Part shown: positions 6,495 through 18,912 of the stretch, piece after piece
Position numbering within the stretch: position 1 is the first letter of the stretch
Layout: each line of letters opens with the position of its first letter
Assembly: GCA_002338715.1 (NCBI GenBank)
Contig: DDIR01000123.1
Span: forward strand, 1-33,504
DNA: 33,504 nucleotides
Source: Phycisphaerales bacterium UBA1845
Lineage (GTDB): Bacteria; Planctomycetota; Phycisphaerae; UBA1845
Direction: 5' to 3'
Notes under the pieces: generated by a model
What the model was told of the DNA's origin: nothing
Database searches by the model: none
The model's input: the letters and a program-made list of their open reading frames with translations, nothing else
Made by a program: the position numbers and the translations under genes

Positions 6495-9400
6495 CTACCG
6501 CTGGCGGCGACGTCGCAACTGCTGGGTCTTCATGCGGCTGAAACCGAGCAGCATCAGCAGCATCGTCGCGGTGCCCGTAGCACCACATGGTGCGTCGGCT
6601 CCACAGCTGGCCGCATCTTCACTGCCGCTGTCGACGCATTCGCCGTCGACGCAAGTCTGACCGCTTGCACAGTCCGAGTTCACCGTGCAGGCGGCATCTG
6701 CGGCGGTGCATTCACCGTCGACACATGACTCACCCTGTGGGCAATCCTGGCTCGTCTGGCAGCCATTCGTCGAAACTTCGCACACGTTGTCGACGCAAGT
6801 CTCGCCCTCGAGGCAGTCCGCGGTTGTTTCGCAGTCAGCCCCCGGCAGGTTCGGATCCGGCTGCTCGACGATACAACCGTCCGCATCAACGGCTGACCCG
6901 GGTGGGGTTCCCTGGCACAGGTCGTTGCAGTTCGGAACACCGTCAACGTCCGAGTCGGTGTCGGCAACGCCACATCCGCAAACACCGGGTTCGCCCTTGT
7001 TCGAATCGTTCGGGCAGCCGTCGCAGACATCGCCAATGCCATCGTTGTCGGCGTCGGCTTGATTGGCGTTTGAATTGTTCGGACAGTTGTCCACGCAATC
7101 AAGATCGCCGTCATTGTCGCTGTCGATGTCCGGCGATCCGCAACCGCAGACGCCAACCGATGTCTTGTTCGCATCATTCGGGCAAGCGTCGCAAGCGTTA
7201 CCGCGGCCGTCACCATCACTGTCGGTCTGGTTGGCGTTCGCGTTCAGCGGACAGTTGTCGTTGCAATCGGGAACACCGTCAAAGTCAGGGTCGACTTCCT
7301 CGACGCCGCAACCGCATGCACCGGCTTCTGTTTCATTCTTATCGTTCGGACATTCGTCAACGCAATCGGGCGTGCCGTCGTCGTCGGTGTCAATGCGATC
7401 GTCCAGATCGTCGCCGGTACCGTTGGTGCAGACGTCGATGCAATTGGGCACCGTGTCGCCATCGGTGTCGGTCTCAGCAATACCGCAACCGCAACTGCCC
7501 TGTGACGTCTTGTTCGGATCGGTTGGGCAACCGTCGTTGCAGTTCGGTGTGCCGTCAGCATCCGTGTCGGTTTCGGGCGTGCCGCAACCGCAGGCACCCG
7601 GTGCAACCTTCAGGAAGTCATTCGGGCATCCGTCGCATGGATTGAACGTTCCATCGTTGTCGGAGTCGCCCTGGCAACCATCCGGAATGTGATCGTTGTT
7701 GCAGTCACCGCAGGCAGCCGCATTGGCGAATCCGGTCGGGCAATTCGCGATGTCGACCGTGTCCAGGATGCCGTTGTTGTTGCAATCTTCGCATTCGTCC
7801 GGAACACCGGTCAGGTCAACGTCAGGACTAAACCCTGAATCAATGTCGCATTCGTCAAGAATGTCATTGAGGTTACAGTCGTTGCCGTCGAGCTCGCAGA
7901 TGTCCTGAACCTGGTTGTTGTTGCAATCGTCCTGCGATTCGCATTCGTCGAGGACGCTGTTGTTGTTGCAGTCGTTGCCTGCAATTTCGCAGATGTCCTG
8001 GACCTGGTTGTTGTTGCAGTCGTCCTGCGATTCGCACTCGTCGGGGACAGTATTGGCGTTGCAGTCCACACTGCCATTGGCGATTGCACAGAAGTCCAAT
8101 TCGCCATTGTTGTCACAGTCGGCCTGCGACTGGCATTCGTCAGGAACGTTGTTCCCGTCGCAATCTTCAGACCCGCTCAAGATGTCGAGCGTGTCGGCGA
8201 TACCGTTGGTGTTGCAGTCCGGAATACATGTGCAATTCTCGGTACAGAACGGATCGACCGGAACTTCACCGCACGGACAAACATCCGGTGCGAGCTTGGC
8301 CGAATCGAACGGGCAACCGTCACAGGCGTCGCCAGCCGAGTCATTGTCACTGTTGGTCTGATCGGAGTTCGGAAAATCTGGACAGTTGTCGATGTCATTG
8401 CCCACACCGTCCAGATCGTCGTCACGCGGGCCGACATCGATCGTCAGTTCAATCGTCGACGTGACACCGGTCGCCGAGTTCTGGACCGTCATCAGGATGT
8501 TGGCACCCAATGGCTGCGACTGGGCGTACACGTGTTCAACGATCGGTCCGGTGCCAATCAGTTCATTGCCGTCGCCAAAGTCCCACGTGTAAAGAAGATC
8601 AGGGTTGTCCAATTCATAGAATTCGTCCCGTGTTTGCGACGCATCGAATGCGACCACGAGGGGGTTCCCGGCATTCGGATACGTGATTTCGAGTTGCGGG
8701 AAGAGCCGCGGAAGCACGTTTCCATTCAGGAATGAAATGGGGGCGCTGTAGGCGGTCTTACCCGTGGTGAAGAAGGTAAAACCGTCCGCGCGATTGTCTT
8801 CATCGCCGGCTGAGAAACTACCGAGCCGGTAAGTGACGTTGCCCGCGGAACTACTGTTTCCGGGATTCTGTGCCAATATCAGTTCCGTCTTGGAGGGCAC
8901 GGAAAGAATGTTGTAGAACCCGGGCACGACATTGGTTCCACCCGTAATTCGGACTACGTCATTCGAATCGAAACTCGTCGCGTCGAAAGAGGCATCCGGG
9001 TCAGTCAGCTTGAACTGTCCGACGTTGGTGACGTTGGCGCCATCACCCAATACGCCCGTCCAGTCAATCGTGAACGTGATCTCGCCGTTGTCGCTGGTGT
9101 ACTCGACGCCGGTCGTGGCATTGGCCTGCTCGCCGGAAAGCTCACCGATGACTTGCCAGATTTCCTGCCCTGGCGTTGTGTCGTCAACGCAGATGACGTC
9201 CCACAATTCAACCTTCGATGTTGCAAGGTCGACAATGACGGGACTGTCGTCCGTGAGCCCGGTTGTTCCGATCATCACCGACGTGCCGCGGATCTTACCC
9301 GAACCACGATTGGTGCCTGTCGGGCGGGCCGGCGAGGCGCTCGGGTCGGTTCGACCATCCTGACCTGGACCGGGGACCATTCTCGCGTAGAAGAAATAGG

Positions 9401-12400
9401 TTCCGTCACCCGGCAGTGCAATCAAGGGAACACCGTAATTTCCGGTGACGTACCCTGGCGCTTTGGTCTGGGGAGGGCTAAGCAGCGTGCCGTCATAGCC
9501 TTCGTTGTCGGAGTCGAAATAGAACTCGATCTTGGTTCCGCCATCGAAGTCGAATGCGTTGTAGGCAATGCGATACTGACCACCGACCACCAAACCGCCC
9601 GGCGGATCGATGAAGTTGAGAAGCGGCACCAATCGCGGCGTCCACAGGAACGTCACAAACGAGCTTTCAAATTCCTGAACGATATCAAGGATTTCGATGC
9701 CGCTGCGAATCTGGCCATACCACCGCGAATTCGGATCGGTGGCATCTTCACGCCATTCGGTCACACCATTGAGTCCGGGGAACGGATCGCCCGCATCACC
9801 CGCGTCCTCACCGCCGTCGGCTTGGACGATTGCGTAGATGAAGTTGGACCCAACGCGCTGCTGCAACGGCTGAGCTTCCGGTGCGTCCAGGAGCGGGCGT
9901 GGAATGTTGGTATGCATCAACATCATTCCGTTGCCGATCGGGGCGCCGGGAGCGTAGAGCGAGAAGTTGATCTTATTACCACCGGCACCGGGTTCGTCCG
10001 GCGGGTCAACACCGGTCAATCGGTAGAAGTAAAAGCGCTCTTCCAGGTCCGGATCAGCGTCCTTGTTGCGGTTCTCGTGGTAATACACCGAATGCGACGG
10101 ATCGAATGCAAAGTCGGTCAATTCGATCTCGGTCGGTTCGCCGGGACGAAGGATGTCAGCGAGGTCCGTCACGTCGATCCATGACGGGTGTGCCGTGCCA
10201 AGGAAGGAGTTGCCCGTGAACTTTTCTTTCAAGACCGGCGACGGATGGACGAACCCACCGGCCATGATATCCCAAGCTCCCACCGGGGTGTCGATAATTG
10301 CTCCGGGCAGGTATTCGTCATAGTCGTAGAGGTCTGGGTAGAGTTCCCAGACGTGCAACCATTCATGCGCCATTAGCTGCTTTCCTGCACCACCGACCAC
10401 GCCACCCACATCGCCACCAACTTCGCCGACGTCACCGAGCGTCGTCCCAAAGTCAGAGAACCAAATTGGCGAGAGCGATCCGGGCGTGTCTTCCCGTACC
10501 TGAATCGGAAGATCCATCGCAGGTGCGGGCAACTGGAAGAGCCCTCTGCCACCTGGTGCCAAGCCGGTCGCAACAATGCCGGCAGGGAGGATGAACGTGG
10601 AGTGTACGAAATTGAAATGCAGGTCAAAACAGACTTCTTCTTCTCCCCCCAAAGGAAGCGGGATTGTGAGACAGATTGTGTTGTCCACCGGCATGACCAG
10701 AAGGTCCCAGTCGGCTGAATCATCATGGACTTCGACGGCATCTTCGGTCAGTCGCCGTCGGTTAAACGGATAGGTCGTGCTTGGGCCGCCATCATTGGTT
10801 GTCCCCAAGTCGAGGTCGACTGAGTAGTTCTCGGTTCCACGATCACGCACCTCACCTTGGTCGAGAAGTCCGTCAAGGTTGAAGTCGCGTTTCATCGCCA
10901 AACCTGATGTTGCGTCATCGTCTTTACGCCACGTCAGAAACTCCAGGCTCGTCAAGTTTCCACCGTCAAAGCCGGCAGTGCCGTGGATGTTGAATGCAAA
11001 GGGTCCAGCCGGTGGGATAATACTATCGGGGCCGCTTGGGTTGTTGGGGTTATTTGTGCCTCGATCATGTCCCCAGTCGTTGGTACTAAACGGTGAAGTG
11101 ACTTCACCGAATCGACCGTCACCACCGTACCACTCACCGTCGAATCCGAGGACCATCGGATCGAGGCTGTTGGTGTTGATGAAACCGAAGTGCGAGTAGC
11201 CCGAGTAAACCGGTTCACCGGCAGTAAAGCTGCGCGTGTGATACATCGAGGAGGGCAAGTCGCGGAACTCGGCTGGACCGTCGTAGTAACCCGTCGTGTC
11301 CGGGTAGATGCTGCCGCCACCGCCATTTGGATTCTCTGCGTCAAATCCGTCACCGACGAACATCGGCTCCAGGGTTGGGGAGTCGCATTCGTTTTCCTGT
11401 ACTTCTGCATCGGGAGTGCACTCGACGCCTGTTCTGGCGTTCGTTCCACCGACGTTTGGGTTGAAGTCGCGCGGGCCGCCAACGCCGGGTGACTGCGGGT
11501 CAAAGTCCCGCATGACCGGAATGTCTTCGACCCATTCAGGTGCATCGGGCGCTTCTGTTGGAATCAAGCCGCTATCGATGTGCTCGTCACGCCAGTATTG
11601 ACGCCACCATTCCTGGTACGACACCATCGCCGGATAAAACGCCCCGGGTTCCGGTGTGATGGGGACATAAAAGCCGCCCGGCGCCGGTGCCTGTTGGAGT
11701 TTCGTATTGCCGACTTCGGTCCAAGCGTCAGGTCCGTCATACACACCGTTACCGCAACGCGCGATCAATGCATCCGCGTCGCCAGGGTAGTTTCGGCGGA
11801 TGTAAGCCTCTGCCCACGCGCGGCTGCCTTTTGTTTCAACATCGCCCTCAAACGTGTTGTTTGGACTTGGATCAAGCTTGATCCATCGGCCTTCCACCGT
11901 GGTGCTTTCGCGATCGTAGATGACCAGGAAGTCTTCAAAAGGTTCGGCATAGTCCCAAGCGCCATCGTCGTCAAAATCACAGTATTCGTCGTTTCCGATT
12001 TCTCCATCGGGCGTGCAGTCCGGGACCGTATCGCCCAGATCGTTTTGCATGGACCCTTTGTAACCATCCGCCGTGTCTTCGGTCAGCGCGTCGTAGTACC
12101 CGTTGCCATTGAGGTCGACGAATCGTTCGCCGGGCGTCCAGACCGGATTGCCGTGAATGTCCATGTCGTCCAAGCCGAGCGGATAAACTTTGACGTTGGC
12201 AGTGGGATCGTCAGGTGTTCCGGTGCTGTCGTTGTCGTAGAGGTCACCGTTGTAGTCAATGCGATACATCTGACGTGATTGGTCAAAGTTCTCGCCTTCG
12301 AATTCTGAGTAAGAGCCGCCATTAAGATTCGTGAAGGGAAGCGTGCTGGGAGAGCCTTCGGGCAGGAGCGGCCAGGGAACTTCACCCCAGTCAAACACGT

Positions 12401-12695
12401 TTCCGGTTACGGTAACCTGCCCATATGAGATTTCCTTCCAGTACTCTGCAAACGAGTCAATGTTTGGATTGAAGTCGTCGAAGTACTGATCGAAGATGTC
12501 GCCGCGATCCACGCCAGTCACGCTGGCTGGCGGGTAGCCACCGCTCACCGACTTTGGCGGGACGACCATCATCACGGTGAACTTTCGCTCATCGGCGACG
12601 GCTTGCGTGGCAACAAAAAGCGAGAACATAATCGCCAGGCTCAAGCCCGCGCAAATCCAGTTGCAGAATCCTCGTGTACGATTGTTGGTTTTCAC
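6495..12695 (-). CDS. Giant secreted M6-like metalloprotease with PKD-like and TSP3 repeats
   Basis: The 2066-residue exported protein starts at GTG 12695, with GGGGAG 6 bases upstream; longer ATG forms lack this site. A signal peptide follows a basic start (ICAGLSLAIMFSLFVATQA). The N-terminal half resembles immune inhibitor A/M6 peptidases: HEWLH at residues 777-781 gives the zinc motif, followed by ELYPDLYDYD and GAWDIMAGG as in that family. Around residues 1330-1415 is a PKD-like domain (YTWDFGDGNELIGTG). From ~1425 to ~1930 come many calcium-type TSP3 repeats (DNDSAGDACDGCP) mixed with the planctomycete DCNNN...DECES repeat. Three Cys repeats (DCPQGESCVDGEC type) follow. The C-terminus is a hydrophobic stretch and RRRRQR, resembling a CTERM-type surface sorting tail. 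Substrate is unknown. The mature N-terminal part also carries EF-like DxDxDG patches. Confidence 0.85.
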   Translation of the reverse strand: MKTNNRTRGFCNWICAGLSLAIMFSLFVATQAVADERKFTVMMVVPPKSVSGGYPPASVTGVDRGDIFDQYFDDFNPNIDSFAEYWKEISYGQVTVTGNVFDWGEVPWPLLPEGSPSTLPFTNLNGGSYSEFEGENFDQSRQMYRIDYNGDLYDNDSTGTPDDPTANVKVYPLGLDDMDIHGNPVWTPGERFVDLNGNGYYDALTEDTADGYKGSMQNDLGDTVPDCTPDGEIGNDEYCDFDDDGAWDYAEPFEDFLVIYDRESTTVEGRWIKLDPSPNNTFEGDVETKGSRAWAEAYIRRNYPGDADALIARCGNGVYDGPDAWTEVGNTKLQQAPAPGGFYVPITPEPGAFYPAMVSYQEWWRQYWRDEHIDSGLIPTEAPDAPEWVEDIPVMRDFDPQSPGVGGPRDFNPNVGGTNARTGVECTPDAEVQENECDSPTLEPMFVGDGFDAENPNGGGGSIYPDTTGYYDGPAEFRDLPSSMYHTRSFTAGEPVYSGYSHFGFINTNSLDPMVLGFDGEWYGGDGRFGEVTSPFSTNDWGHDRGTNNPNNPSGPDSIIPPAGPFAFNIHGTAGFDGGNLTSLEFLTWRKDDDATSGLAMKRDFNLDGLLDQGEVRDRGTENYSVDLDLGTTNDGGPSTTYPFNRRRLTEDAVEVHDDSADWDLLVMPVDNTICLTIPLPLGGEEEVCFDLHFNFVHSTFILPAGIVATGLAPGGRGLFQLPAPAMDLPIQVREDTPGSLSPIWFSDFGTTLGDVGEVGGDVGGVVGGAGKQLMAHEWLHVWELYPDLYDYDEYLPGAIIDTPVGAWDIMAGGFVHPSPVLKEKFTGNSFLGTAHPSWIDVTDLADILRPGEPTEIELTDFAFDPSHSVYYHENRNKDADPDLEERFYFYRLTGVDPPDEPGAGGNKINFSLYAPGAPIGNGMMLMHTNIPRPLLDAPEAQPLQQRVGSNFIYAIVQADGGEDAGDAGDPFPGLNGVTEWREDATDPNSRWYGQIRSGIEILDIVQEFESSFVTFLWTPRLVPLLNFIDPPGGLVVGGQYRIAYNAFDFDGGTKIEFYFDSDNEGYDGTLLSPPQTKAPGYVTGNYGVPLIALPGDGTYFFYARMVPGPGQDGRTDPSASPARPTGTNRGSGKIRGTSVMIGTTGLTDDSPVIVDLATSKVELWDVICVDDTTPGQEIWQVIGELSGEQANATTGVEYTSDNGEITFTIDWTGVLGDGANVTNVGQFKLTDPDASFDATSFDSNDVVRITGGTNVVPGFYNILSVPSKTELILAQNPGNSSSAGNVTYRLGSFSAGDEDNRADGFTFFTTGKTAYSAPISFLNGNVLPRLFPQLEITYPNAGNPLVVAFDASQTRDEFYELDNPDLLYTWDFGDGNELIGTGPIVEHVYAQSQPLGANILMTVQNSATGVTSTIELTIDVGPRDDDLDGVGNDIDNCPDFPNSDQTNSDNDSAGDACDGCPFDSAKLAPDVCPCGEVPVDPFCTENCTCIPDCNTNGIADTLDILSGSEDCDGNNVPDECQSQADCDNNGELDFCAIANGSVDCNANTVPDECESQDDCNNNQVQDICEIAGNDCNNNSVLDECESQDDCNNNQVQDICELDGNDCNLNDILDECDIDSGFSPDVDLTGVPDECEDCNNNGILDTVDIANCPTGFANAAACGDCNNDHIPDGCQGDSDNDGTFNPCDGCPNDFLKVAPGACGCGTPETDTDADGTPNCNDGCPTDPNKTSQGSCGCGIAETDTDGDTVPNCIDVCTNGTGDDLDDRIDTDDDGTPDCVDECPNDKNETEAGACGCGVEEVDPDFDGVPDCNDNCPLNANANQTDSDGDGRGNACDACPNDANKTSVGVCGCGSPDIDSDNDGDLDCVDNCPNNSNANQADADNDGIGDVCDGCPNDSNKGEPGVCGCGVADTDSDVDGVPNCNDLCQGTPPGSAVDADGCIVEQPDPNLPGADCETTADCLEGETCVDNVCEVSTNGCQTSQDCPQGESCVDGECTAADAACTVNSDCASGQTCVDGECVDSGSEDAASCGADAPCGATGTATMLLMLLGFSRMKTQQLRRRRQR

Positions 12696-12784
12696 GGCAG
12701 CTCCCCAATGGCTCGTTTGGTTGTCTAGATCCAGCAAGCAGTGCGAATCTTCAAGCAAATCTGTTTTGGTCTGGCATCAACTTT

Positions 12785-13161: not shown

Positions 13162-14097
13162 TTATCGGTCTTCGTTGTTGAGTGCCTTGATGCGCTCCAG
13201 CACCGGTTCCCACGATGCCCGGTGATGGATCATCATTGGAAAGATCTCCCTGACGTGGCCGGTTTTATCGATGAAGTACGTCGTGGTCTGATGATATCGG
13301 TCCTTCGTGATCCCTTCGATGTCCGCAACCAATTTGAATCTTGGCTCAGAGTTGAAGTGTTTCAGGAATTTGGCATGTGATACCAAATCTTTGTCTTCCT
13401 GCGCTACTGCAATCACCACGGTGTCGAGCTTCGTGAATTCGTCGTAGCTTTCCTGCAACTGGACCAGTTGCTTCGCACAGTACGGTCACCAAAACGCCCG
13501 ATACGTGGTGAGCACGATATTCGATTTTCCGATCATCTCGCCAAGATCGACCTGCGTGCCATCCGCCTGCGGCAATGAGACACCCTTCACCTTCTCGCCT
13601 ATTTTGACAAGACTGTTGTCGCCCCAGGATGCATCGCCGATCGCGACTTCTTTCCCCCCACCCTCCGCAATCACCGGAACCGCAATCCGCTTTCTGATGA
13701 AGCGAACCGAGCCATCTTCCAGCGTTGCATAGGCAATGAAATTGATTGCGATCTGATCAGAATCTTTCGGCGCGGCGATGAGTTTGAAATCAATATTGGA
13801 AGATTTGGATTCGAGCGCACGTTCAAACGGGGCGCGGAGAAATTCATTCTTTGCCAATTCCTTGTGCTCATTCAGGACCTTCCCGACCAGTTCGACCGAT
13901 TTGGGAACATCGATCTGAATCAGCGGGACGGGAATCCCGGCTTGGTCCACGGACGAGTTGGAAGCAATATCCCAGTTCAATGTGAGCGTGTAGGACTGGC
14001 CCACGTGCAAATCCGTGGCATCGATCCTTGCAGATATCTCGACGGCATTGGGCTGCACAATTCCCAGTGCCATGATGCAGAGCATTGGCATCGACAT
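13162..14097 (-). CDS. Probable selenoprotein: thioredoxin-fold protein with U-x-x-C site (in-frame TGA = Sec204)
   Basis: Two open frames in the same phase (13486-14097 and 13162-13458) are separated by a single TGA at 13486-13488. Read through as selenocysteine they give a 311-residue protein. Residues ~1-18 form a short hydrophobic export signal. Residues ~20-150 look like a beta-sandwich such as the DsbD N-terminal type (VGQSYTLTLNWDI, AINFIAYATLEDGSVRFIRK). Residues ~170-311 are a thioredoxin/AhpC-TSA fold (KGVSLPQADGTQVDLGEMIG, then NIVLTTYRAFW-U-PYCAKQL). The UGA falls exactly on the first redox Cys of the W-C-x-x-C motif, with Cys207 as resolving residue. The downstream half keeps family features (TTTYFIDKTGHVREIF). 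A hairpin fitting a bacterial SECIS follows. GGAG lies 10 bases before the ATG. A nonsense mutation or sequencing error is the alternative. Confidence 0.8.
13455..13488 (-). promoter_or_regulatory. UGA-Sec codon and putative bacterial SECIS hairpin
   Basis: Downstream of the UGA the mRNA reads GCAACUG-GUC-CAGUUGC (13455-13471), a perfect 7-bp stem with a 3-base loop. The loop begins 21 bases after the UGA and starts with G. The apex CUGGUCCAG shares the GGUC of the E. coli fdhF SECIS apex, at nearly the same distance from the UGA. This fits the general bacterial SECIS rules of UGA-to-loop distance and a G early in the loop. No bulged U is evident. Confidence 0.72.
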
Positions 14098-14363: not shown

Positions 14364-16529
14364 ATGTCGGATGGATCGGGTCGTTACATCATGCTTGTCA
14401 GCGTTCATGGACGCGTCCGCGGTTCTGACATGGAACTTGGGGTGGATCCCGATACCGGTGGGCAGATCACCTATGTGGTCGAATTGGCCAAGGCGTTGAT
14501 CGAGCACTCCGAAGTCGACCGCGTGGATCTGGTAACGCGGCGTCTTGTCGATCCCAAACTCGATTCGGTATATGGCGAGAAGTTTGAAGAGCTAGCCCCA
14601 GGTGCAAACATCGTCCGCATCGAATGTGGTCCCCGACGCTACCTCGCGAAAGAATCGCTCTGGCCACATTTGGACAGTTTCTCGGACAATCTGCTTCGAT
14701 TTTTGCGAAATCAGGGGCGTGTTCCCGACCTGATTCACGGGCACTATGCCGACGCTGGATATGTGGCGGCGCGGTTGTCGTCGCTCTTGGGGATACCGAT
14801 GGCCTTCACCGGTCATTCGCTCGGACGGGTCAAAAAGCAGCGGCTACTTGAACAGGGAACGACCGAAGAAGCCATCGAGAAACGATACCGCATCACACGG
14901 CGCATCGAGGCCGAAGAGTATGCGCTCGACAACGCAAACTTCGTTGTAACCAGCACCCATCAGGAAGTTGAAGAGCAATATGCGCTCTACGACAACTATC
15001 AGCCCGGTCGCATGACCGTGATTCCGCCGGCTGTCGATCTGAGTCGCTTCACGCCGCCACCGCGCAGTTGGCGCAACCTGCCAAAGATCCAGAAGGCGAT
15101 CGCGCCGTTTCTTGAGGATTGGGCCAAACCGATGATCCTGGCGGTGTCGCGTCCCGATCCGCGCAAGAATATTTCCGCGCTCATCAAGGCATTTGGCGAG
15201 AATCAGGAATTGCGCGATCGTGCGAATCTCGTGGTGGTCGCCGGCAATCGCACGGACATCAATCAACTTGATCGCAGTGCCCGTGAAGTTGTCAATGAGA
15301 TTCTCTATTACGCTGATCTCTATAATCTGTACGGCAAGATCGCCTACCCGAAAAATCATCAGTCCACTGACGTTCCGCACCTATATCAGTTGGCGGCCAA
15401 GACCAAGGGCGTGTTCGTCAATCCCGCGTTGACCGAACCATTCGGATTGACGTTGTTGGAATCAGCCGCCAGTGGACTGCCGATTGTGGCCACGTCGGAC
15501 GGTGGTCCGCGAGACATTGTGGCGCTCTGTAAGAACGGTGTACTCATTGATCCGCTGGATACAGATGCGATTGGAAAGGCGCTGCTGGATGCCATTTCAG
15601 ATCGAGGGCAATGGAACCGCTGGTCTCGGTCGGGTTTGCGCGGAGCGCACCGGCATTACTCGTGGTCAGCGCACGTCAGCAAGTTCGTCAACACTGCAAG
15701 CGCTGCGATCCGAAATTCCCACAAACGCCAGCGCCCGCTTTCAAACGCGGCCAGGCTCATCACCGCTGACCGAATCGTGGTCTGCGACATCGACAACACG
15801 TTGGTGGGCGACAAAGGCGGACTTCGCGAGTTGATTCGAATGCTAAAGGATGTTGGTTCACGCGTGGCGTTTGGGATCGCAACTGGACGAAGCCTCGAAT
15901 TGACGCTGTCTGTTTTGCAGGAGTGGAAGATTCCAACGCCACAACTCTTAATCACGTCTGTCGGTAGCGCCATACATTATGGGGCTCCGCTGATTGAGGA
16001 CCGTGGATTCGAGCAGCACATTCGCTATCGGTGGCGTCCTGACGCGATTCGCGAGGCGATGGCCGACGTTCCCGGATTGAAGCCACAGGGGCCGGAAGGA
16101 CAAACAGAATACAAAATCAGTTTCGACATGATCGAAGGCGAAGCACCTTCGGTAACGGACGTAATTCGCCATTTGAGGCGATCGCGCATACAAGCCAAAG
16201 TAATCGCATCGCATGGGGCATACCTCGATATCTTGCCGATAAGAGCATCTAAGGGCATGGCGCTGCGTTATTTCGCCATGGACTGGGGTGTTGGGCCCGA
16301 TCGTTGCCTTGTGGCTGGCGATTCGGGCAACGATGAGGAAATGCTGACAGGCAACACGCTGGGTGTGGTTGTAGGCAACCACGATCCAGAACTGGAGAAA
16401 CTCCGTGGCGAACCGCACATCTACTTTGCAGAAAAACACTACGCGTGGGGAATCATCGAAGGAATCGAGCACTACGACTTCTTCGGTCAGATCCGCACAC
16501 ACGAACCGGAGTTCATCTCGAATGTCTGA
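14364..16529 (+). CDS. Bifunctional sucrose-phosphate synthase / sucrose-phosphate phosphatase
   Basis: The 721-residue cytoplasmic enzyme makes sucrose-6-phosphate from a sugar nucleotide and fructose-6-phosphate and should also dephosphorylate it. Residues ~5-450 are a GT-B glycosyltransferase of the GT4 sucrose-phosphate synthase type ([52 protein letters not shown]). The donor-site EX7E motif lies in [16 protein letters not shown]. Residues ~465-715 are a HAD phosphatase. Its nucleophile is Asp475 with Asp477 in [20 protein letters not shown] and [12 protein letters not shown] are the other HAD motifs. A fused, apparently complete phosphatase differs from plant enzymes, whose C-terminal domain is inactive. 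AAGGAGG precedes the ATG by 5 bases. The stop overlaps the sucrose synthase start by 8 bases. Confidence 0.93.
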
Positions 16530-18912
16530 TGCCATTTCAACGTATATGCGTGAACACCGCGACGAAGCCTATTTGTTGTTGCGCAAGTTCACGTCGCAAG
16601 ATAAAAAGTTCGTCATGCGCTCGGAGCTTCGCGAATCGATGGAGTTGGTGTCCGCCGAGCGCGAAGACTCGTCGCTGTCGACATCGCCTTTGGGTGAATT
16701 GTTGAATGCGAGCGAAGAGGCCGCGATAGACGGACCATGGATTGCGATTTCTGTTCGTTGGCGCCCGGGCCAGTGGCAGTTTTATCGTTTCCACGCCGAA
16801 GCGGTTGACGTCGAAGAGATCGATGTATCCGAGTTTCTGGCGTTCAAGGAGCGGCTGGTCGACGGTCAAAGTGCACGCGATCAATGGCAGATGGAAGTGG
16901 ACCTGACGCCGTTCAACCGTGGGTTCCCGAAGCTGAAGGAACCGCGGTCGATTGGTCAGGGGATGAGTTTCCTGAACCGCCGTCTTTCGAGCGAACTCTT
17001 TCAGGAACTTGATCGTGGTGATCAGCGCCTGCTGCAATTCCTTCGCCTGCACCAGTACTCGGGTCGCCAGTTGATGCTGAGTCAGCGGATCCACGACGTA
17101 ACCGAATTGCGCCGCGCCCTTCGCCAAGCCGACGAATATCTGGAGAAATGTTCGCCCGACGCAACCTGGGACGATGTTTCGCTCGATCTTGAGGCCATGG
17201 GCTTTGAGATGGGTTGGGGCAAGACGGTCGAGCGCATGCGCGAAACGTTGCGGATGCTTTCCGACATTTTGGAAGCGCCCGATCCCGGCGTGCTGGAAAA
17301 CTTCCTCGCACGCATCCCGATGATTTTCAACATTGTGATCCTCTCGCCACACGGCTACTTCGGTCAGTCCCACGTGTTGGGACTTCCCGATACCGGTGGG
17401 CAGGTCGTCTACATTCTCGACCAGGCTCGTGCGCTCGAATGGGAAATGAAGAAGCGTCTGGACGAGCAGGGGATCACGCTCGAACCGCAAATCCTCGTCG
17501 TCACGCGATTGATTCAAAACGCGCATGGCACAACCTGCGACCAGCGGTCGGAAAAAATCATCGGTACGTCGAATGCACGAATCCTCCGCGTGCCATTTCG
17601 CGATGCGCATGGGGAGATTGTCCCCAACTGGATTTCGCGTTTTGAAATTTGGCCCTACCTGGAGCGGTTCGCAGAAGAGGCTGAAAAGGAAGTGATCGCC
17701 GAACTCGGCGGCAACCCGGGGCTGATCGTCGGCAATTACTCAGATGGCAATCTCGTGGCGACGTTGATGTCGCGTCGGTTGCACGTGACGCAGTGCAACA
17801 TCGCCCACGCGCTGGAGAAGACCAAGTACCTCTTGAGCGATCTCTATTGGAAAGACAACGACTCGCAATACCATTTCGCGTGTCAGTTCACGGCTGACCT
17901 GATCGCGATGAACAATGCCGACTTCATCATCACCAGTACGTATCAGGAAATCGCCGGTACGGAAGACAGTGTCGGGCAGTACGAAAGCTATTCGCATTTC
18001 ACGATGCCGGGTCTTTATCGCGTTGTGAACGGCATCAACGTCCACGATCCGAAATTCAACATCGTTTCACCGGGGGCTGATCCGGATATCTATTTCAGCC
18101 ACGCAGACAAGAAGCGCCGTTTGACCGCGCTCGAACCCGAACTGCGCGAAATGGTCTTCGGCGACGGTGGCGGTTCGCCTTATCGCGGCCATTTCAAAGA
18201 CGAATCAAAACCGATCGTCTTTACGATGGCGCGGCTCGATCGCATCAAAAACCTCAACGGTCTCGTCGATTGGTTTGGCCGATCCGAGCGCCTGCGCAAA
18301 CACGCCAACCTGTTCGTCGTCGGCGGGCATCTCGATCCGGCGCGGTCCAGCGATCACGAGGAACGTCAGCAGATTGAACGCATGCATCAGTTGTACGACG
18401 AGCACAATCTGGAAGGGCACTTCCGTTGGCTCGGGTTCCAGTCGGAACGCACGCTGGTGGGTGAGTTGTATCGATTCATCGCCGACCATCGCGGTGTGTT
18501 CGTTCAGCCGGCGCTGTTTGAGGCGTACGGATTGACGGTAGTCGAAGCGATGTCGTCTGGTTTGCCGACTTTTGCGACATGCTATGGCGGACCGTCGGAA
18601 ATCATCGAAGACGGTGTGTCGGGATTCCACATCGATCCCAACCACGGCGACCAAGCCGCAGAACTCATCGCAGAGTTCCTCGAAAAGTGTGCCGCAACGC
18701 CGAAGTGCTGGGATCAGACCTCGCAGAATGCCATCGCCCGCATCGAACGTGGGTACACGTGGCGGTTGTACGCCGAGAAGATGATGACGCTCGCACGGGT
18801 CTACGGTTTCTGGAAATACATGACCAGCATCGATCGCGAAGAGACCAGCCGCTACCTCGAACTGCTATACGGATTGCAGTACCGCTCGCTTGCGGACTTT
18901 AGAACGCCATAA
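16522..18912 (+). CDS. Sucrose synthase
   Basis: The 796-residue GT4 enzyme reversibly converts sucrose and a nucleoside diphosphate into NDP-glucose and fructose. The GT-B core shows [20 protein letters not shown] then [20 protein letters not shown]. Later comes [19 protein letters not shown] and the donor EX7E motif in [20 protein letters not shown]. Length equals the ~800 residues of the family, including the N-terminal regulatory region. At the plant 'QN' nucleotide-specificity motif, Gln640 is kept but the Asn is Val646 ([13 protein letters not shown]), so UDP preference cannot be assumed and ADP use is possible. The ATG at 16522 overlaps the end of the preceding gene; a frame-open ATG at 16405 would bury the start in that gene and is not needed. 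Making and splitting sucrose in one operon suggests a carbon-storage or compatible-solute cycle. Confidence 0.95.

Follow-up and report, generated by a model that had tools for sequence, protein, structure and literature searches.

The window analysed here comprises 33,504 nucleotides (positions 1 to 33,504 of contig DDIR01000123.1) from Phycisphaerales bacterium UBA1845 (GCA_002338715.1). A gene on its minus strand very probably encodes a two-domain selenoprotein, predicted to be exported, in which a hairpin would direct the insertion of selenocysteine (Sec), a redoxin domain would reduce disulfides or else peroxides, and an N-terminal domain would act as a docking or substrate-presenting module. 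The in-frame TGA at residue 204 almost certainly encodes Sec. A selenoprotein had been proposed in the first-pass annotation of this DNA, and this proposal is supported by the conservation of the TGA, a covarying hairpin, and the presence of the Sec machinery in the genome.

The gene is a minus-strand frame of 311 codons (14097-13162), interrupted solely by the TGA at 13488-13486 and ending in TAA (13164-13162). The sequence GGAG is located ten bases 5' of its ATG. The TGA lies in the context T-T-Y-R-A-F-W-U-P-Y-C, with Trp203 immediately before it and Cys207 three residues after it. The first-pass annotation had described two same-frame open reading frames (ORFs) joined by one TGA at the position of the first redox cysteine, and this was confirmed: the upstream ORF (14097-13486) encodes 203 amino acids (aa), and the downstream part continues in the same frame to the TAA. 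The 98-aa ORF listed downstream is in this frame, but its listed start, an internal TTG (codon 214, 13458), is not where the frame begins; the frame itself runs on from the TGA.

Homologues were collected from three genome samples. Among 51 genomes of the same family as the window genome, 43 matched, 18 of them with short redoxin-domain matches only, which were not counted as the gene. A full-length homologue was present in 25 of the 51 (the window genome included), and each of these matches contains exactly one TGA. The other 24 homologues are 37-76% identical to the window protein. All 26 extracted loci have their TGA in the same alignment column; they comprise those of the 25 genomes and L019 (JANQQE010000011.1), a public duplicate of L024. 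The aligned protein of L019 is identical to that of G048, a genome placed in the genus of the window genome. Upstream extensions of L029, L035, L036, L039, L040, L042, and L044 were trimmed before protein alignment A1. In the class sample (397 genomes), 37 genomes matched and four with partial, stop-free matches (G268, G306, G308, and G311) were not counted; the long matches in 33 genomes, including that of G310, which covers profile positions 5-244 only, each contain one or two TGA. A second TGA arises where the match overruns the terminal stop (seen in L121), and two further rows include the terminal TAA. In the phylum sample (392 genomes), 25 genomes matched, 17 of them with redoxin-domain matches only, and eight had a long match, at nine places in all, every one with a TGA.

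TGA was present at the site in all 36 two-domain DNA loci that were aligned and read codon by codon, which come from 36 genomes and several families, and neither TGT nor TGC was found there; this bears directly on the earlier proposal to look for Cys or Sec at residue 204 of homologues. G151, G310, G392, and L106 are known only as TGA-containing. The 11 loci outside the family of the window genome (L077-L087) were extracted by a pattern requiring TGG-TGA, and a wider pattern allowing U, C or S at the site gave U in the same 11 loci. The DNA alignment does not include L088 (YRRATUGRC) or L106, in which the motif was not found. L106 (G592:C41) comes from a genome already holding one copy and is a divergent additional homologue that contains one TGA. 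Cysteine at the equivalent position was observed in shorter redoxins of other architecture (L089, L093, and L102). L089 and L093 are stop-free redoxins with FSRAHWCPFC; they are related to the catalytic domain, with cysteine at the site, and differ in architecture. The sequence on both sides of the TGA is conserved, as had been noticed in the window alone: the mean majority identity over the 26 extracted loci is 0.57 before and 0.70 after the TGA, and the nonsynonymous substitution rate (dN) is below the synonymous rate (dS) on both sides in eight of eight chosen genome pairs. Purifying selection acts on the protein both before and after the TGA.

The RNA just 3' of the TGA contains a candidate Sec insertion sequence (SECIS), whose 7-bp stem starts 14 nt 3' of the TGA and whose 3-nt loop, GUC, begins after 21 nt. 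The strongest codon constraint among 119 conserved columns falls on residues 214, 211, 210, and 212, which form the hairpin. Residue 214 is encoded by TTG in 25 of 25 members (vs. 19% of the Leu codons elsewhere in these genes), residue 211 by CTG and residue 210 by CAA in 24 of 25 each, and residue 212 by GTT in 16 of the 21 with Val. Over 36 sequences, 98.0% of the hairpin cells are paired (4-37% in slid controls), and the covariation score is 0.210 (shuffle mean 0.091); neither value was reached by any of 500 shuffles. Double-sided changes occur in four of the seven pairs (15 cells), a number that 4 of 500 shuffles reach. Synonymous double changes convert CAA..TTG to CAG..CTG in L078, L081, and L082 and CTG..CAG to TTG..CAA in L035. 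The bSECIS model given in a 2026 review has a loop of 3-9 nt with G in the first two positions, a stem of 4-16 bp, a distance of 16-37 nt from the TGA, and a minimum free energy (MFE) of at most -7.5 (PMC13188914). The present hairpin agrees with these values in its loop GUC, 7-bp stem, 21-nt spacing, and MFE of -10.4 for 43 nt. A scan of the window with Rfam at gathering scores gave no match, and no tRNA gene is present in the window.

The same assembly (91% complete) holds selB, selA directly after selB, tRNA-Sec, and selD, so that the check for selA, selB, selC, and selD suggested earlier gave a positive result for all of them. The tRNA-Sec was found by both Rfam (67.7 bits) and ARAGORN. 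The selD match is above the cut-off and contains one TGA. Co-occurrence within the family is uninformative because most family genomes decode Sec, and the class and phylum samples were therefore used. In the class, a selA match (E ≤ 1e-30) was found in 32 of 33 gene-bearing genomes, compared with 147 of 397 overall (Fisher 3e-14, uncorrected for kinship); the lone genome without it, G027, is 83% complete. All nine gene-bearing class genomes outside the family have selA. The corresponding numbers in the phylum sample are 8 of 8 and 246 of 392 (p 0.03), with 239 of the 246 matches over the cut-off. One selA match (G028:C353:463-1812) contains a TGA.

A number of observations weigh against the explanation as a whole. 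The selB of the window genome was read as two pieces around a run of N. A selA match is absent from two of the 25 gene-bearing family genomes (G016, 63% complete, and G027, 83%), and a tRNA-Sec match from four (G016, G017, G027, and G037), three of which are 63-83% complete while G037 is 97% complete. The dN and dS values are rough, as dS is near or above 1 in most of the eight pairs. The covariation tally counts sequences, not events, and eight A-U to G-C changes of one pair all lie outside the family of the window genome and may thus represent few events. As many pair types were obtained with 32 of 500 shuffles, and five of the 36 sequences do not form the innermost pair. The folding energy of single sequences was no better than that of shuffles (z -0.71 to 0.48); because energy alone gave no such separation, the hairpin was assessed by codon constraint and covariation. 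Among 17 loci compared for their neighbourhoods (the window and 16 stretches, some ending at contig ends), no recurrent neighbour gene indicating a substrate was found. As a separate observation, the run of N that splits the selB frame is located near 10.6-10.7 kb of L017.

The C-terminal domain of the window protein matches PF00578 (2.9e-17) and PF08534 (7.2e-11), both over the gathering score, and carries a UxxC redoxin site. The PF00578 match runs unbroken across the TGA, which is aligned to the first Cys of CxxC in 3hdc and ResA. The position of the WCPxC motif is shared with ResA/TlpA-type proteins, and profile positions 170-289 align to ResA. A match to the NCBIfam ResA model (E ≤ 0.001) is shared by 25 of 25 members, and most other NCBIfam matches of these members are to generic redoxin, peroxiredoxin, and thiol-oxidoreductase models. 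The models listed for the window protein all score under their cut-offs, including ResA (NF002854, 46 bits vs. 170) and the SelL-related redox protein (NF040769, 30.9 bits vs. 120). The first-pass annotation was right to recognise a redox domain with U-P-Y-C; judging from these alignments, the domain is better called a peroxiredoxin (Prx)/ResA-type redoxin than a thioredoxin.

A selenoprotein acting mainly as a peroxidase, not as a disulfide reductase, would be a variant of the main explanation that is compatible with it, and we regard it as rather unlikely. The motif of true Prx is given as PxxxTxxU in the review (PMC13188914), and no PxxxTxxC/U signature is present in the window protein (T-T-Y-R-A-F-W-U-P-Y-C). 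When the protein is aligned to Bcp1 (3drn), Sec204 takes the place of the Thr in T-P-G-S. The WUPYC motif resembles the WCPYC/WCPHC of thiol-disulfide oxidoreductases.

The N-terminal domain was searched with Pfam, which gave no family for the window protein and four single weak matches among the 25 members. A Foldseek search with the model of this domain placed the N-terminal domain of DsbD (nDsbD) at ranks 1-7 (E 3.2e-3 to 1.2e-2, probability 0.97-0.99). Residues 17-163 of the window protein contain no Cys, nor is one found among the invariant or nearly invariant N-terminal columns of the 25 members, isolated Cys residues occurring in single members. The catalytic cysteine pair that we take to characterise nDsbD is thus not found here. 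The DsbD-N-like domain named earlier keeps weak structural support from Foldseek but lacks the conserved cysteine pair, and the model weakly suggests a beta-sandwich resembling the immunoglobulin-like fold of nDsbD.

A protein search (22 matches) and a profile search (40 matches) retrieved 43 different proteins; 41 belong to the family, and two are generic redoxins. Each of the 41 stops at Y-R-A-[FHY]-W, one residue before the TGA position, and a TGA presumably follows in the DNA. They are fragments of 190-232 aa without the active site, and 40 of 41 have no precomputed Pfam domain, so that the family is practically invisible to annotation. Truncation at the TGA by automated annotation had been anticipated. 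Homologues ending at this point had also been put forward as a refutation; database proteins do end there, but wherever the DNA was read the frame continues past the TGA. Neither search gave an intact cysteine form of the two-domain protein, the profile search having scored the best 7996 candidates by shared words. A collection-wide genome scan with one protein gave one near relative and one distant redoxin.

The truncated database entries could be taken at face value, as a functional 203-aa protein that ends at the TGA and is followed by a separate or accidental frame. Such a protein is predicted for 41 of the 43 retrieved sequences, and 25 of 25 family members and 28 of 36 loci have TTG at codon 214, which could serve as a start. 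Termination would, however, cut the redoxin fold of the model right after the strand 193-199, whereas the PF00578 match is unbroken across the TGA and conservation is higher downstream of it. A start at codon 214 would omit both Sec204 and Cys207; this codon is CTG in 8 of 36 loci, and its TTG belongs to the hairpin. We therefore consider the 203-aa protein very unlikely, and a truncated product may be formed under selenium shortage. A pseudogene or a sequencing error, with the TGA a nonsense mutation or a miscalled TGT, TGC or TGG, is more improbable still: the TGA is one base from each of these codons and ends 5 of 21 picked ORFs, which makes it an ordinary stop elsewhere, but the same TGA recurs in 36 of 36 loci from 36 assemblies across genera and families, dN is below dS downstream of it, and the hairpin covaries. 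Recoding of the TGA as an amino acid other than Sec, by genome-wide reassignment or simple read-through, is hardly credible, as nothing specific favours it, TGA terminates other ORFs in the window, the Sec machinery and a SECIS-type hairpin are present, and the TGA lies at the first Cys of CxxC in 3hdc and ResA.

According to the 2026 review, prokaryotic selenoproteins fall into 119 families or subfamilies; its Table 1 includes a Prx-like thiol:disulfide oxidoreductase (PF00578, UxxC/UxxU) and a Redoxin family selenoprotein (PF08534, UxxC) (PMC13188914). The window protein shares with them an AhpC-TSA/redoxin domain with UxxC, so the catalytic domain is of a known type. It differs in an extra conserved beta-sandwich of ~147 residues in front, as far as entries that Table 1 names by their redoxin domain can be compared by description, and in that the matches include no cysteine form of the two-domain protein. 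From ResA/TlpA-type proteins it differs in having Sec for Cys and an additional N-terminal domain. Fusions of a Prx-like selenoprotein domain to an unknown domain were described in the Global Ocean Sampling (GOS) study (Prx-like 3/Unknown_3 and Unknown_2/Prx-like 2; PMC2398784), and the window protein shares this arrangement. Unknown_3 has three conserved Cys including CxxC, whereas the N-terminal domain of the present family has no conserved Cys. For Prx-like 2, a weak similarity to PF04592 is given (PMC2398784), and Unknown_2 may correspond to the N-terminal domain of the window protein. The two-domain fusion was not found in the table of the review (PMC13188914), and no description was found in the literature as far as the searches reached. 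Within these sources, the undescribed architecture suggested earlier holds for the fusion and not for the UxxC redoxin domain, which is already known from selenoproteins. In the phylum sample, other TGA-containing redoxins (L090, L091, L092, L107, L100, and L103) have WWUL[YF]C, HWUPPC or HWUPFC sites and different extensions, and they are possibly further selenoproteins.

Table 1 Positions of the probable selenoprotein gene and its features in the window.
Feature	Position	Strand	Remark
Complete selenoprotein gene	13162..14097	minus	311 codons, counting the TGA as Sec; ends in TAA
Hydrophobic N-terminal segment, possible export signal (residues 1-16)	14050..14097	minus	Read by eye; predicted local distance difference test (pLDDT) < 50
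Beta-sandwich domain (residues 17-163)	13609..14049	minus	No cysteine in the window protein, no Pfam match
AhpC-TSA/redoxin domain (residues 162-311), UxxC site (Sec204, Cys207)	13165..13614	minus	
TGA, probable Sec codon (residue 204, in W-U-P-Y-C)	13486..13488	minus	Single alignment column across loci
Candidate SECIS hairpin core, GCAACUG-GUC-CAGUUGC	13455..13471	minus	Codon constraint, double changes, fit to bSECIS model

In family f8, the sole two genomes listed with selA (G141 and G347) are also the sole two with the full gene. In both, one strand carries, in this order, selB (assigned by sequence likeness only in G347), selA, a deiodinase/redoxin-like gene containing a TGA, and the present gene, which lies within ~4 kb of selA. 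The last two genes are separated by ~100 bases in G141 (counted from the ATG at L121 position 9085) and by 1.4 kb in G347. In G040, selA is on the contig of the gene, ~8 kb away. The deiodinase/redoxin-like genes between selA and the present gene (L121:9193-10431 and L125:6451-7935, both minus strand) have their TGA in FGCLTUPPF, and their C-terminal part holds F-A-C-x5-W-C, which we take to be reminiscent of the nDsbD cysteine pair. Among the 17 loci, apart from the halves of the gene itself, one neighbour cluster, an ORF antisense to the gene, recurs in four loci; a further three clusters are each seen in three loci, and the remaining ones in two or one. This sparse recurrence indicates no common partner. 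The window also contains a 2087-aa ORF (6495-12758, minus strand) with a weak PKD match and many aspartate-rich repeats, whose product is perhaps secreted, and adjoining sucrose-phosphate synthase/phosphatase-type and sucrose synthase genes (14364-18912, plus strand) in an order common to G048.

We propose that ribosomes read the TGA as Sec because the hairpin just 3' of it, which is delineated by codon constraint and covariation, would recruit SelB with Sec-tRNA(Sec). By its alignment position, Sec204 would replace the N-terminal nucleophilic Cys of CxxC, and Cys207 would resolve it by analogy with ResA/TlpA-type enzymes. Outside the cytoplasm, the redoxin domain would then most likely reduce disulfides, or else peroxides. 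The N-terminal beta-sandwich most likely serves as a docking or substrate-presenting module, which is the weakest step of the proposal.

Going further, and only tentatively, the gene might represent an undescribed family of exported, Sec-only selenoenzymes, in which a cysteine-less beta-sandwich derived from nDsbD docks an upstream reductase or substrate and is fused to a redoxin with Sec at the Thr position of peroxiredoxins, the gene travelling with selA and selB as a Sec cassette in at least f8. If so, it would belong to the few selenoprotein families that have no cysteine orthologue. Among the papers found by the searches, one deals with selenoproteins of this phylum (PMC4807772). The present gene adds to the phylum, in which selA was found in 246 of 392 sampled genomes, a selenoprotein family that has a very clear SECIS and has so far been seen only with Sec, and which offers a clean case for why Cys does not replace Sec.
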